Shown: positions 55,125-60,950, counted from the first letter of the stretch. The stretch: DNA of 64,000 nt from Halogeometricum sp. S3BR5-2 (GCF_031624635.1 NZ_JAMQOQ010000001.1:310001-374000), one strand, 5' to 3'. Notes: generated by a model from the sequence alone, not told the origin. Program-made: numbers and translations.

Positions 55125-55237
55125 GCCGAAGACGCGAGGCGACGCTCTCCGTCCCCGATGTTCCCCCGACCCGGAATCGGGCCACCGGGGAGACGACAAA
55201 TAAAGAGTTTTCCGCGCGCCCGCGAGAGTCCAAACCA

Positions 55238-56611
55238 ATGAGCACGACCCACGAGTACGACGTCGCCGTCGTCGGCGCGGGCACGGCCGGGTGCTACGCC
55301 GCCGCGACCATCGCTCGCGAGGGCCTCGACGTCGTCGTCGTCGAACGGAAGACCGCCGAGGAGGCGGGCCACATCGCCTGCGGCGACGCGCTGAAGGGCG
55401 CCGACGCGTTCCCCGACGCCATCCCGAAAGAACAGATTCAGCCCGCGTTCACGAACACGGACGTCGACCACGGGCGCTTCGAGATTCCGCAGGAGGACTC
55501 CGTCCTCGAAATCCCGGTGCCGGGCGAACTCGCGGTCATCGACCGCTGGGAGTACGGCCGCCGCCTCATCGACGGCGCGGAGAACGCCGGCGCGGAGTTC
55601 CACTACGACACCGTGGTGCAGGACGTGACGCAGGACGACGACGGGCGGGTGACGGGCGTCCGCGCCAAGCGCAAGGGCGACGTCGTCGAGTACGAGGCCG
55701 ACGTGACCGTCGACGGGGCGGGCGCGCTCTCCCTCCTCCAAGACAAGGCGGACTTCTCAGAGGCGACGTTCGACACGAACGTCTCCTACTCGCAGTTCTG
55801 CTCGGCCTACCGCGAGGTCGTCGAGGTGGACGAACCCGTCGAGTGGTCCGACGCCCTCGTGTTCAAACCCGCCGAGGTCGCCGCGGGCTACATCTGGTAC
55901 TTCCCGCGGACGGAGACGACCATCAACGCCGGCCTCGGCTTCCAGATGACCGAGGAGCCGATGAAACTCGTCGACGACCTGAAGAAGGACCTCCGGGCGC
56001 GACCCGAGTTCAAGAACGCGACGGTGACGGACAAACTCGGCGCGGCCCTGCCGACGCGCCGCCCCTACGACTCCGCCGTCGCCGACGGCTTCGTCGCGGT
56101 CGGCGACTCGGCGGGGCACGTCAACCCCACCACCGGCGGCGGCATCGCCGGCGCCGCCTACGCCGGCAAGTACGCGGGCGAGCAGGCCGTCCGCGCCATC
56201 GGCGAGGGCGACGTGAGCGAGGCGGCACTCTGGCACTACAACGAGCGCGTGATGGACCACTTCGGCGCCCGCTACGCCGGCCTCGACGTGTACAACATCC
56301 TCTCGACGGCCATCGACGTGAACGGTCTCACGGGGCTTCTGGCCCGCCTGCCCGGCGAGAAACTCGCCGAGGCGCTCTACTCCGGGACCACCTCGTTCGG
56401 CCCCCGCCTCATCGCGCAGACCGCAAAGGAGTCCTACGGCTTCTGGGAGGAGATCTATCAGTTCTACCAGACGAAGAACGTCGCGGACGACCTGATGAGC
56501 CACTACGGCCGCTACCCGCGCCGACCGGGAGCGCTCGACGGCTGGCAGACCGAACGCGACCGTCTGATGGAGGAGGCGTACGCGGTCACCGGTGCCGACC
56601 CGAAGTACTGA
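55238..56611 (+). CDS. Geranylgeranyl reductase family FAD protein
   Basis: 457 residues. FAD motif DVAVVGAGTAGCYAAATIAREG, the CGDAL loop with a conserved Cys, ERKTAEEAGHIACG, and GFVAVGDSAGHVNPTTGGGI with the second FAD contact. Archaeal members saturate the geranylgeranyl chains of membrane lipids (digeranylgeranylglycerophospholipid reductase). AAATAAAG about 36-43 nt upstream is a candidate box A. Works with the UbiA gene at 22291 and mvaD in lipid synthesis. Confidence 0.92.
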   Translation: MSTTHEYDVAVVGAGTAGCYAAATIAREGLDVVVVERKTAEEAGHIACGDALKGADAFPDAIPKEQIQPAFTNTDVDHGRFEIPQEDSVLEIPVPGELAVIDRWEYGRRLIDGAENAGAEFHYDTVVQDVTQDDDGRVTGVRAKRKGDVVEYEADVTVDGAGALSLLQDKADFSEATFDTNVSYSQFCSAYREVVEVDEPVEWSDALVFKPAEVAAGYIWYFPRTETTINAGLGFQMTEEPMKLVDDLKKDLRARPEFKNATVTDKLGAALPTRRPYDSAVADGFVAVGDSAGHVNPTTGGGIAGAAYAGKYAGEQAVRAIGEGDVSEAALWHYNERVMDHFGARYAGLDVYNILSTAIDVNGLTGLLARLPGEKLAEALYSGTTSFGPRLIAQTAKESYGFWEEIYQFYQTKNVADDLMSHYGRYPRRPGALDGWQTERDRLMEEAYAVTGADPKY

Positions 56612-56732
56612 GTCTCGGGTAGTCGGCGGTCGGACTTCTCGCGCCCGATTCGACCGGAGCGACGGCTCCGGCGAACGGGTACGATAGGGAAAAATCGAAA
56701 CGCGAACGCGAAAAATCGAGCGGGGCGGAACC

Positions 56733-59435
56733 TCAGAGTCCGTCGTCGGTCGCGGTCTCGGTACCGCTCTCGGTCGTCTCGGCGGTCTCCTCGCTCGCCG
56801 TCTCCGTTTCAGTCTCCGCTTCGGTGGCTTCTTCGTTCGCCGTTTCCGTTTCGGTCTCCGCTTCGGTGGCTTCTTCGCTCGCCGTCTCCGTTTCAGTCTC
56901 CGCTTCGGTGGTTTCCTCGCTCGCCGTCTCCGTTTCGGTCTCCGTCTCGGTGGTCTCGTCGCTCTCCGTCGCGGTCTCCGATTCGGTGGCCGCGTCGTCC
57001 GTCGTCTCGGCCTCCGACTCGGCGGTCTCGTCGCTCGTCACCTCGTCGGACGTGTCGGCTCCGTCCCCGGCGCTGTCTTCCTCGTCGTCGTCGGTGTAGC
57101 CCGGAGCGGTCGCGTCTCCGTCGTCGTCTCCGGCGTTGACGTCCCGGTCGTCGTCGGTGTAACCCGGGGCGGTCGCGTCGCCGTCGCCGCTGTCGTCGTC
57201 GTCCGCACCGTCGGTGTAGTCCGGTTCGTAGTCGTCTTCGTCATCGGCTTCGGCCTCGTCCTCGCTCGTCTCCTCCTCCTCGGACTCGATGAGGAGGGCG
57301 ACGGTGGTCGAGTCCTCGAACGTGGCCTCGACAGTGCCGTTCTCGGACTGCACGACGGAGTCCTCGACTGCGATCCACTCGCCGTCCTCGAACTCGTACA
57401 GCGAGAGGAGCGATTCGTTCTCCTCGTCGACGTCCGCGTCGGCGTACGAGATGCCGAGCGTCAGCGACGTCTCGTCCCCGACCGATTCGACCTCGACGGC
57501 CGAACCGACGAGCGTCAGGTCATCCGGGACCTCGGGCGTCTCGTCGGCCGCGCGGATGGCGACGTCCTCTCCGGTGTAGGTGACGGTCGTCCCGTTCACG
57601 GAGACGTTCTCGCCGCCGCTCTCGGTCGCACCCGAGGCGAGGTACGCGGCCCAGTCGTCGCCGCTCGCCGTCGAGTTCTCGACCTGGTTGTCGGTGCCGC
57701 CGAGGTAGACGAACGCGCCGCTCGCATTAGTCGCGTTCTCCTCGTCGTCAGTCGCGTCGTCGTCAGCCTCGGTCTCCGTGGCGACGGCCGTTTCCGTCTC
57801 CGTTTCGGCGGGTTCGGTCGACGTCTCGGTCTCGGCTTCGGTTTCCGTTTCGGCTTCCGTCTCCGTCTCTTCCGCGGCTTCCGTTTCGGTCTCAGCCTCC
57901 GTGACGGTACCGCCCTCACCCTCGGTCGTCTGGTTGTCGACCTGTGCCTGGAGGGCGGCCTCGGTCTCCGTGGCGGTTGCGTTCTCGGTCTCGGTCCCTT
58001 CCTCAGTTTCGGTCTCGGCCTCGGTGACAGTCTCCGCTTCCGTCACCGTCTCTTCTCCGGTCTCTTCCTCAGTTTCGGTCTCAGTCGCCTCTTCAGTGAC
58101 CGCTTCCGTCTCGGTCTCGACTTCAGTTTCCGTCTGGTCGGTTTCGTCGTCCGCTTCCTCGAAGTCGGCGCCCGTGTCGTTCACGGTCGCGTTCCGGACA
58201 GCGTTACCCTCGCCGCCGGCGAACACGACGCCGGCCACGCCGTTGCCGTCGGCGGTCAGGTTCTCGACCGTGGAGTCGGTGCTCTCGAACAGTTCGACAC
58301 CGAGGCCCGAGTTCTCGCTCGCGTTCACGTCCGTCAGCGACGCGCCGTCCGCGCCGACGAGGACGATGCCCGCGTAGTGGTTCGTCACGGTGACGTTGCT
58401 GATGGAGACGTTCTCGACCGTCCCGCTCTCCGCCATCACGACGATGCCGACGGTCTCCGTGGTTCCGTCGGTCTCGCCGCCGACCGTGACGGGCGGGACG
58501 ACGCCGTCACCGACCGTCGAGTCGTATTCGACCGTCTCCTCCTCGGTTTCCGTTTCGGTCGCGTCCTCAGTTTCCGTCTCGGTGGCGTCGGCTTCAGTTT
58601 CGGTGGCGTCGGCTTCAGTTTCGGTGGCGTCGGCTTCAGTTTCGGTGGCGTCGGCTTCGGTCTCGGTGACGTCAGCTTCGGTCTCCGTCTCGGCCGTCGC
58701 AGTCTCTTCGGTCGTCGCCGCCTCGGTCGCGGTTTCGTTCTCCGCGTCCGTCTCCGTCTCCGCTTCCGTCGCCGTCTCTTCCTCGGTCTCCGTTTCGGTC
58801 TCAGCCTCGGTGACGGTACCGCCCTCGCCCTCGGTCGTCTGGTTGTCGACCTGCGCCTGAAGGGCGGCCTCGGTCTCCGTTTCCGTCTCCGTCGCGTTCT
58901 CGGCTTCCGTCCCGGCCTCAGTCTCCGTGGCAGCCTCGGTGACCGTTTCCGTCGCGTTCTCGGTCTCGGTTTCGGCCTCGGTAGCGGCCTCCGTTCCCGC
59001 CTCAGTCTCGGTTTCGGTGGCGGCCTCGGTTTCCGCCTCCGTTCCGGCCTCAGTTTCGGTGGCGGCCTCGGTCTCAGCCTCGGTTTCGGTCTCCGTGGCG
59101 CTCTCCGTCTCCGTCGCCGTCTCGCTCGGCGCCTCTTCCCCGGCGAGCGTCACGCCGTCGCCGTCTATCTGCACGCCGTCGCTCGCGACGACGATACAGG
59201 CGTCCACCGCCGACCCGTTGGCGGTCAGCGACGTCTCCTGGTCGGCCGAATCGTCCGCGAGTCCCTCGCCGAGCACGTAGGTCCCCGGTTCGGTTATCGT
59301 CGTGCACTCTTCTATCGTCGTCGGCGCCTCCTGAGCGACGGCGTCGCTCGAGAAGGCCCCGAGCAGGGCGGCCGGCGCGACCGTCACGACTAACAACGCC
59401 GCGGCGACCGCACAGACCTGTCTCGTTGTAGGCAT
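56733..59435 (-). CDS. Secreted Thr/Glu-repeat protein with beta-helix segments
   Basis: 900 residues. N-terminal signal peptide (VCAVAAALLVVTVAPAALLGA). Right-handed parallel beta-helix turns appear at ~40-95 and again at ~305-435 and ~600-680 (GIVLVGADGASLTDVNASENSGLGVEL style, NosD/CASH-like). Between them run long Thr-Glu-Ala tracts, including a 91-bp block duplicated 909 bp apart, a 21-bp tandem repeat and a C-terminal 42-bp tandem repeat, plus Asp-rich DATAPGYTDDD twins. No PGF-CTERM or C-terminal helix, so it is secreted or held otherwise. Function unknown; surface or S-layer-associated role is inference. Its promoter box A is near 59472. Confidence 0.85.
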   Translation of the reverse strand: MPTTRQVCAVAAALLVVTVAPAALLGAFSSDAVAQEAPTTIEECTTITEPGTYVLGEGLADDSADQETSLTANGSAVDACIVVASDGVQIDGDGVTLAGEEAPSETATETESATETETEAETEAATETEAGTEAETEAATETETEAGTEAATEAETETENATETVTEAATETEAGTEAENATETETETEAALQAQVDNQTTEGEGGTVTEAETETETEEETATEAETETDAENETATEAATTEETATAETETEADVTETEADATETEADATETEADATETEADATETETEDATETETEEETVEYDSTVGDGVVPPVTVGGETDGTTETVGIVVMAESGTVENVSISNVTVTNHYAGIVLVGADGASLTDVNASENSGLGVELFESTDSTVENLTADGNGVAGVVFAGGEGNAVRNATVNDTGADFEEADDETDQTETEVETETEAVTEEATETETEEETGEETVTEAETVTEAETETEEGTETENATATETEAALQAQVDNQTTEGEGGTVTEAETETEAAEETETEAETETEAETETSTEPAETETETAVATETEADDDATDDEENATNASGAFVYLGGTDNQVENSTASGDDWAAYLASGATESGGENVSVNGTTVTYTGEDVAIRAADETPEVPDDLTLVGSAVEVESVGDETSLTLGISYADADVDEENESLLSLYEFEDGEWIAVEDSVVQSENGTVEATFEDSTTVALLIESEEEETSEDEAEADDEDDYEPDYTDGADDDDSGDGDATAPGYTDDDRDVNAGDDDGDATAPGYTDDDEEDSAGDGADTSDEVTSDETAESEAETTDDAATESETATESDETTETETETETASEETTEAETETETASEEATEAETETETANEEATEAETETETASEETAETTESGTETATDDGL
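56785..56952 (+). repeat. 42-bp tandem repeat, four units
   Basis: Four near-identical 42-bp units (56785, 56827, 56869, 56911) inside the surface-protein gene, each coding 14 residues of the type ETETETASEETTEA on the minus strand. Differences between units are mostly in third positions, so the array is not brand new but still homogeneous enough to recombine. Confidence 0.9.
57881..57971 (+). repeat. 91-bp direct repeat, copy 1
   Basis: Matches 58790-58880 at 87 of 91 positions, 909 bp away and in frame. It codes ALQAQVDNQTTEGEGGTVTE and flanking Thr/Glu residues. Confidence 0.9.
58580..58684 (+). repeat. 21-bp tandem repeat, five units
   Basis: Five units of 21 bp; the first three are identical and the last two carry several substitutions. 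Each codes seven residues TETEADA on the minus strand within the Thr/Glu tract of the surface protein. Confidence 0.9.
58790..58880 (+). repeat. 91-bp direct repeat, copy 2
   Basis: See copy at 57881-57971; four mismatches in 91 bp. Its spread implies duplication by gene conversion or unequal recombination inside the gene. Confidence 0.9.
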
Positions 59436-59469
59436 ACGGTGTGAGTGAAACGTCCATCCGTGTTAAATC

Positions 59470-59475
59470 ATATAA
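59470..59475 (-). promoter_or_regulatory. Box A of the surface-protein gene
   Basis: TTATAT on the minus strand inside an AT-rich run, about 35-40 nt before the ATG at 59435, giving a leader of roughly ten bases. This is the most AT-rich promoter in the window. Confidence 0.55.
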
Positions 59476-59678
59476 GCGAATTTACAAATTTTCTCGACGG
59501 GCGGATTTTCGACGCATCCGGTCCGATCTAACCGTACTGTCGATGCCTTGCGATTTTACCCGGCGAAGGACGGTTCCGTTCGCGGAGAAATCAGCGCCGA
59601 CGACCGGTCGGAACGATTGTCAGATATCGTAACTATACGCCCGGCGCGGGTCGGGTGTCCCGCGGACTTGCGTCCCGC

Positions 59679-60950
59679 CTACGGCCGCGACGACGCGACG
59701 TCGAGAATCGCCCCCGCGAGCACCTCGACGCCGAGTTCGATGGACTCCTCGTCCACGTCGAACGTCCGGGTGTGGTGGCCGCCGGGGTGGTCGGTGCCGA
59801 CGCCGACGTACGCCGCGAGGCCGCCGTTGTCCTGCACCTCCTGCATGAGGTACGTCGCGTCCTCGCTCCCGCCGAGCACGTCGTTCTCGAGGACCGACTC
59901 GACGCCGTCGTTCGCCCGCGCGACGGCGGCGACGATGGAGGCGAGAGCCCCGTCGCTCGTCGCGGAGGGCGCTTTTCCTTCCGTCGAGATATCCACCTCA
60001 CAGCCGTGCATCTCGGCGGCCGACCGGACGACCCGCCGCCCCTTCTCCTCCATGTACTGCATCAGTTCGGTGGTCTCCCCGCGCACCTCGCCGCCGATGG
60101 ACGCCTCCTCGGGGATGATGTTCGAGGCGGTGCCGCCCTCGACGACGCCGGCGTTCACGCGCGTCGCGCCGTCGGCGTGCCGGGGGATGCCGTAGAGGTT
60201 CTGCACCGCCGTCGCCATCGCCTGCACGGCGTTGTCGCCCTCCTCGGGTCTCGCGCCGGCGTGCGCCGGCGTTCCCGTGAAGCGCGCCTCGAAGTGCGAG
60301 ACGGCGAGGAAGCCGTCGATGCCGGCGACGATTTCGCCGGTCGGGTGGTCGAGGCCGACGTGGACGGCGAGGAGGTAGTCCACGTCGTCGAGGTGGCCCG
60401 ACTTCGCCATCGCCTTCCCGCCGGCTATCTGCTCCTCGCCGGGTTGGAAGAACACCTTCAGGGTCCCCTCGAAGTCGCTCTCCGCGACGGCGTCGAGGAC
60501 GCCGACGCCGATGGTCGCGTGGGCGTCGTGCCCGCAGGCGTGCATGTACCCCTCGTTCTCCGAGCGGAACCCGCCGGAGAAGGGGACGTGGTCGTCGCCG
60601 TCGGACTCGGTGATGGGGAGGCCGTCGATGTCGACGCGGAGGCCTACCGTCGGTCCCTCGCCCTTCTCCAGCACCGCCACGGCGCCGGTGTAGCCGCCTT
60701 CGAGGCGGTCGAGGATGTCCTCGCGGGCGCCGGCCTCGCGGGCGCGGTCGAACCACGCCTCCAGTTCCGCCTCGTCGGGGACGGCCATCCGGTCTTCCTC
60801 GGAGAGCACCTCGGGGCCGACGTAGAGGGCGTCCAGGTCGCGCGTCTCCAGTTCGTCGACGAGTCGGGCGGTGGTGTAGAACTCGCGCCAGGCGGGTTCG
60901 GGGTGGCGGTGCAGGTCGCGTCGGAGTTCGACGAGGTCGGCGGACGTCAT
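59679..60950 (-). CDS. M20-family amidohydrolase
   Basis: 423 residues. ELRRDLHRHPEPAWREFYTTARL at the N-terminus, HACGHDAHATIGVGVLDA and FFQPGEEQIAGGKAM for the metal site, FTGTPAHAGARPEEGDNAVQAMATAVQNLYGI in the dimerisation lid, and the C-terminal GVGTDHPGGHHTRTFDVDEES. These hydrolyse N-acyl amino acids such as hippurate or indole-acetyl amino acids. A stretch at ~40-80 after the first strand is longer than usual. Substrate unknown. Confidence 0.92.
   Translation of the reverse strand: MTSADLVELRRDLHRHPEPAWREFYTTARLVDELETRDLDALYVGPEVLSEEDRMAVPDEAELEAWFDRAREAGAREDILDRLEGGYTGAVAVLEKGEGPTVGLRVDIDGLPITESDGDDHVPFSGGFRSENEGYMHACGHDAHATIGVGVLDAVAESDFEGTLKVFFQPGEEQIAGGKAMAKSGHLDDVDYLLAVHVGLDHPTGEIVAGIDGFLAVSHFEARFTGTPAHAGARPEEGDNAVQAMATAVQNLYGIPRHADGATRVNAGVVEGGTASNIIPEEASIGGEVRGETTELMQYMEEKGRRVVRSAAEMHGCEVDISTEGKAPSATSDGALASIVAAVARANDGVESVLENDVLGGSEDATYLMQEVQDNGGLAAYVGVGTDHPGGHHTRTFDVDEESIELGVEVLAGAILDVASSRP

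Follow-up and report, generated by a model that had tools for sequence, protein, structure and literature searches.

The window analysed here, a stretch of 64,000 nucleotides from Halogeometricum sp. S3BR5-2 (GCF_031624635.1, NZ_JAMQOQ010000001.1:310001-374000), carries on its minus strand a gene for a 900-aa protein that is 22.6% Glu, 20.4% Thr and 14.9% Ala and contains no Lys, four Arg and one His. The gene lies between two convergent genes, whose products we take to be a geranylgeranyl-reductase-type flavoprotein on one side and an M20-type amidohydrolase on the other, and it combines predicted folded segments with three tracts rich in Thr and Glu, several DNA repeats and an AT-rich upstream element (Table 1). 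An open frame of 338 aa also runs antisense to tract 1 (58377-59393, plus strand); we rejected it as a real gene, since homologs, a signal peptide and a candidate promoter all belong to the minus frame, and since a high-GC repeat yields such frames mechanically.

Table 1. Features of the locus, in window coordinates (aa, residues of the 900-aa protein; AF2, AlphaFold2).
Feature	Position	Strand	Basis
Flavoprotein gene, neighbour and synteny anchor	55178..56611	+	conserved locus
Gene for secreted-type beta-helix/Thr-Glu tract protein	56733..59435	-	900 aa; ATG start; orthologs
Thr/Glu/Asp C-terminal tail (tract 3), aa 723-900, predicted disordered, no anchor	56736..57269	-	AF2; composition
42-bp tandem array EEATEAETETETAS	56791..56990	-	Tandem Repeats Finder: 4.9 copies, 86% matches
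63-bp Asp-rich pair in tail (GDGDATAPGYTDDD)	57062..57186	-	Tandem Repeats Finder
Last helix coils and ZU5-like beta domain, aa 570-722, predicted	57270..57728	-	AF2 pLDDT 86-95; Foldseek ZU5
Thr/Glu tract 2, aa 423-569, predicted disordered	57729..58169	-	AF2; composition
91-bp block, tract 2 copy	57880..57970	-	87/91 to tract 1 copy
Right-handed beta-helix, aa 326-422, predicted	58170..58460	-	Pfam Beta_helix/NosD; from aa 331 onward, AF2 pLDDT about 80-93
Thr/Glu tract 1, aa 102-325 (224 residues, with 69 E and 66 T), predicted disordered	58461..59132	-	AF2 pLDDT about 30-37 over most; composition
21-bp tandem array (TETEADA)	58572..58679	-	Tandem Repeats Finder: 5.1 copies, 93%
91-bp block, tract 1 copy (ALQAQVDNQTTEGEGGTVTEAETETE)	58789..58879	-	best 91-bp window
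Solenoid N-terminal cap, aa 38-101, invariant Cys44 and Cys80, predicted	59133..59324	-	AF2; ortholog alignment
Putative signal peptide, aa 1-35, ...DAVAQ/EAP	59331..59435	-	Sec-like; no lipobox, no twin Arg; read from sequence
33-bp AT-rich putative promoter element GAAAATTTGTAAATTCGCTTATATGATTTAACA	59461..59493	-	TTATAT starts 40 nt before ATG; contains TGTAA-N6-TTATA
Amidohydrolase gene, convergent to flavoprotein gene, synteny anchor	59679..60950	-	conserved locus

The N-terminus reads as a signal peptide (MPTTRQVCAVAAALLVVTVAPAALLGAFSSDAVAQ) with a clear h-region and, judged by eye, an AVAQ/EAP junction, of which the ...AQ end is kept in all five orthologs considered below. At the other end the 900-aa chain has no hydrophobic anchor: it finishes in ...TESGTETATDDGL, and the PGF-CTERM signature (PGF motif, transmembrane helix and basic cluster) is absent from it and likewise from the orthologs. 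The protein is most likely of the Sec-exported type, and the signal peptide and missing C-terminal anchor reported in a preliminary description of this DNA both hold, the former by eye and the latter on reading of the C-terminus.

Pfam finds only Beta_helix (E=1.3e-9) and NosD (E=3e-6) in the protein, at aa 339-421. The Beta_helix match (PF13229) scores 38.3 bits against a cut-off of 25.9 over aa 341-421, with four of the five orthologs also matching at E<=0.01, and the NosD match (PF05048) is marginal, at 27.2 bits against a gathering cut-off of 23.6. AF2, run on an alignment of the five orthologs, gives pLDDT values mostly of 80-95 for the cap, the helix (about aa 330-422) and the last coils with the C-terminal domain, and returns the same core (pLDDT around 90, with low values at tract positions) for the 519-aa ortholog with the shortest tracts (G011). 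Cys44 and Cys80 of the cap are invariant across the five orthologs, consistent with a disulfide between them. Residues from about 600 to 720 resemble ZU5 domains in Foldseek with a probability of 1.00, but with weak E values (5e-3 to 6e-2) and low target TM scores (0.15-0.44), and no Pfam ZU5 match was found in the five orthologs at E<=0.01. Searching solved structures by sequence gave nothing convincing, the best hit (curlin, E=0.042) being judged a chance match. The predicted fold is thus a compact core made of a disulfide-capable cap, a right-handed beta-helix and a ZU5-like C-terminal domain.

Most of the remaining chain has AF2 pLDDT values of about 30-45, and the three tracts, which together make up 61% of the protein and contain no lysine, are accordingly predicted to be disordered. 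Their boundaries were taken from AF2, a simple composition rule having been dropped because it over-called folded parts rich in Asn and Ser. Thr-Glu tracts had already been described as interrupting a beta-helix region, and the model places them exactly between the folded segments; in it, tracts 1 and 2 look like expanded natural loops of one solenoid, and tract 3 forms a tail. Elsewhere in the same genome, Thr/Glu tracts occur in at least four unrelated exported-looking proteins (L047, L049, L050 and L051), which by eye are PhoX-like, DUF4397-like, cohesin-like with a PGF-type C-terminus, and a lipobox-like nuclease-type protein whose domain occurs twice, on either side of a Thr-Glu tract. 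The tract itself therefore appears to be a general haloarchaeal habit.

Because words such as TE, TEA and ETET make any gene of this kind repetitive at the DNA level, repeat identities were compared with those of 2000 versions of the gene in which codons were shuffled among synonymous positions, leaving the protein repeats fixed. The 42-bp array (DNA identity 0.849 vs 0.748 in shuffles, z 4.0) and the 21-bp array (0.931 vs 0.829, z 3.4) each exceeded all 2000 shuffles. So did the 91-bp pair, whose copies are offset by 909 bp, encode 31/31 identical residues and share 87 identical positions, against a shuffle mean of 77 and a maximum of 86. The 42-bp, 21-bp and 91-bp repeats of the preliminary description (the last given as 87/91 and 909 bp apart) are thus borne out by Tandem Repeats Finder, by alignment and by the shuffles, and most of the repeats are recent copies at the DNA level and not merely a consequence of a repetitive protein. 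The 63-bp pair, previously unmentioned, did not rise above the synonymous-shuffle expectation, 108 of 2000 shuffles reaching its identity. Codon usage in the gene is mixed (ACC 84, ACG 80, GAG 132, GAA 71).

Orthologs were sought with the folded C-terminal segment, which has close relatives in only a few genomes. In a contig profile search the window's own segment alone retrieved no relative, and a two-sequence alignment used as query found the Halogeometricum limi gene. In all, the window genome (G000) and four others, namely H. limi (G003, NZ_FOYS01000002.1), another congener (G002) and two species of a sister genus (G037 and G011), carry the gene between the same two convergent genes, and an NhaC-like gene comes next after the flanking pair in the three loci with enough flank. 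The neighbouring proteins are 79-90% identical to those of the four relatives, the folded segments of the 900-aa protein 34-52%, and the tracts do not align meaningfully. The protein therefore belongs to a synteny-defined ortholog group with the same anatomy and is not an orphan.

The gene is absent from the two closest species (G004 and G001, with 97% and 95% flavoprotein identity, respectively), where the flanking genes stand 49 and 37 bp apart and a cap-profile search recovered only a distant paralog of 237-239 aa. It is therefore dispensable. Since a tree of the two flanking proteins joins G000 with G004 and leaves G001 outside (99/97), its absence from both implies either two losses or one loss followed by a regain.

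Between species, the tracts differ in length, in repeat unit and even in place. That such arrays would change, as had been expected from their repeats, agrees with total lengths of 900, 700, 656, 653 and 519 aa among the five orthologs and with repeat units that vary from species to species (one genome per species): EEATEAETETETAS and TETEADA in G000, units of 36, 30 and 15 bp in G002 (TEETT and others), units of 18, 30 and 48 bp in H. limi (TETETPTE), and N/D-rich units in G011. The tail and its Thr/Glu/Asp/Asn character are kept despite these different units. The G037 protein has its first tract ahead of the cap and not behind it, so that position changes as well as length. All tandem periods listed for the G000, G002 and H. 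limi genes are multiples of three, and slippage would therefore tune length and would not switch the gene on or off.

The 91-bp block proved to be part of a longer module (ALQ...N.TT.G..GGV) that is present in two copies in both G000 and G002 and in a single copy in H. limi. Copies within a gene are 94% (G000) and 87% (G002) identical, compared with 59-67% between species. The internal duplication noted earlier is therefore present, but as an old conserved module that appears to have been homogenised within each gene, as in concerted evolution. Independent duplications in two species would explain this, as would a single duplication with loss in H. limi and homogenisation by gene conversion, which we consider the simpler history; both involve recent intragenic exchange.

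Upstream of the gene, the 33-bp element is identical at 31 of 33 positions in the three Halogeometricum genes, whereas outside it 32 of 150 aligned upstream positions agree, and the two sister-genus genes retain TGTAA-N6-TTACA-N3-TTTA. Searched as a full pattern with one mismatch allowed, it has no match outside this locus in G000, G002 and G011; one or two unrelated or overlapping single matches appear in the remaining genomes, and the reversed pattern, used as a control, matches once or not at all. This points to a conserved, essentially private candidate promoter or operator, and such conservation would therefore indicate that selection acts on the expression of the gene despite the drift of its tracts. 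The palindromic TGTAA-N6-TTAYA motif within the element overlies the TATA region. A wider regulon was considered and rejected, as this motif alone has few sites in five genomes, not clearly above the reversed control.

Beyond the ortholog group, a profile of the C-terminal domain found relatives in 51 of the 293 genomes sampled from the order and in 25 of 87 genera. Given this spread, proteins of this kind are known and common among haloarchaea. Secreted haloarchaeal CASH/NosD-repeat proteins (for example in G063, G192, G261 and G224) have the same C-terminal domain, and those whose full sequences were read also share the cap motif IxxCxxIxxPGxYxL...C(I) and a beta-helix. They differ from the present protein in that most are free of tracts and several carry a PGF-CTERM-like transmembrane anchor: among 27 relatives inspected, most had no long Thr/Glu/Asp run, and six had a PGF-type C-terminal motif, five of these also fitting a transmembrane-plus-basic anchor rule. 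What appears particular to this branch is the lack of an anchor combined with tracts that lie within the solenoid.

We therefore favour, with a probability of about 0.6, the reading that the product is a very acidic, non-enzymatic protein of the surface or matrix, exported by Sec in Halogeometricum and its sister genus, with disordered acidic loops and tail. Tracts 1 and 2 would leave the conserved core as disordered loops of the solenoid, and tract 3 would take the C-terminal place where relatives may carry an anchor. The tracts would act as hydrated, negatively charged spacers, probably N- and O-glycosylated, their composition kept by selection and their length drifting through slippage and gene conversion. 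The core would serve for binding or docking, at the S-layer or in the extracellular matrix, and a protein without an anchor would be either released or held non-covalently.

The 146 Thr residues in the tracts and the 20 N-X-S/T sequons in the protein indicate opportunity for glycosylation only, but two haloarchaeal precedents lend plausibility to an exported glycoprotein. The NosD of Haloferax volcanii (HVO_0892) is secreted through Sec and carries N-glycans attached by AglB (PMC8241124), although its likeness to the present protein is one of NosD family name and not of compared sequences. In the haloarchaeal S-layer glycoprotein, Thr clusters form a likely O-glycosylated spacer (PMC5744192), which is, as here, a Thr-dense stretch in an exported protein; that stretch precedes a membrane anchor, whereas those of the present protein would be internal loops and an unanchored tail.

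The alternative that fares best, although we consider it unlikely, is neutral expansion, in which the core is a surface protein that contributes little and the tracts are an acidic filler that the cell tolerates, constrained only by solubility in high salt. The tracts may indeed be low-complexity filler without function, since similar ones are found in unrelated proteins of the genome that look exported; in addition, most relatives sharing the C-terminal domain are tract-free, and the gene is missing from both closest species. Set against this, the tail is present and Thr/Glu-rich in all five orthologs though its repeat units have been rebuilt, the mixed codons imply that composition outlives the DNA repeats, and the promoter is conserved.

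An improbable alternative is a polysaccharide-binding or polysaccharide-degrading beta-helix protein of the lyase, hydrolase or tailspike type, whose tracts would only link it to the cell. The nearest beta-helices in Foldseek are tailspikes, alginate lyase/epimerase, GH87 and polygalacturonase, but these are among the commonest beta-helices in the PDB and the matches are poor (best E 1.4e-4, rmsd above 19, TM about 0.15). The helix is also short, at about 100 aa plus the last coils, and its invariant residues across the five orthologs are only G, I, V, N, S and A, none of them acidic, His, Lys or Arg, which makes a lyase or hydrolase unlikely in a chain that has no Lys at all. Of the variable surface or secreted polymer-binding protein proposed in the preliminary description, the exported type and the repeat-built tracts are retained, and an enzyme-like role on a polymer is not, given this lack of an invariant charged or His residue in the helix.

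Slightly less probable again is a phase- or antigen-variable surface protein, with strain variation serving escape from viruses or grazers. Rapid turnover of the tracts between species, presence/absence polymorphism within the genus and homogenised repeats would all fit such a role, but on/off switching is not expected from repeat periods that are multiples of three, and no virus link was seen. A NosD-type copper or ABC-associated periplasmic protein, suggested by the Pfam NosD match and by a Foldseek match to the NosD structure 7osf (E=1.4e-2), is very improbable, as the Pfam model here describes a generic CASH/beta-helix repeat that scores barely above its cut-off, and as nosFYZ are absent and the conserved neighbours in four genomes are the flavoprotein, amidohydrolase and NhaC-like transporter genes.

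Returning to the surface or matrix protein, a more specific version of it is possible and is put forward tentatively: a slowly changing beta-helix core may extrude disordered, in-frame, repeat-built brushes from its own loops, with gene conversion keeping the two modules alike in each gene, even as they diverge between species, under a private conserved promoter, so that brush length and charge would be evolvable traits of the surface or matrix. A parallel in process comes from the Borg elements of Methanoperedens, where independent, fast-evolving in-frame tandem repeats (aaTR proteins) give rise to disordered regions, many of them in proteins of the membrane or the cell exterior (PMC9879509). 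Unlike the Borg cases, the present gene is chromosomal and haloarchaeal, lies at a conserved locus and has imperfect repeats. Bacterial Ser/Asp and Ser-rich repeat adhesins (ClfA/ClfB, SRR) likewise place a low-complexity acidic stalk on a beta-rich domain, but the present protein has no sortase anchor and no Ig-like A domain. An MSCRAMM adhesin of ClfA type was rejected, the NCBIfam score being 21.8 bits against a cut-off of 1150 and the match compositional only. A HapP-type antimicrobial precursor was rejected as well: the activity of such precursors lies in N-terminal alpha-helices (PMC12893001), and the present protein is predicted to be nearly all beta structure and disorder.

The beta-helix and the acidic tracts are ordinary in themselves; the homogenised 91-bp module and the putative private promoter element are the specific features. 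With five orthologs and two empty sites, the locus offers a clean natural series, suited to the study of how slippage and gene conversion may rebuild disordered regions while a core and a promoter stay recognisable. The gap between the convergent pair (56612-59678 in the window) is also a recurrent insertion place across about 65 genomes of the family. It measures 2-900 bp in most of them, and other genera hold there either nothing or unrelated genes, which by eye include histidine kinases, an FAD oxidoreductase with an SDR gene, a TFB-like factor and others.
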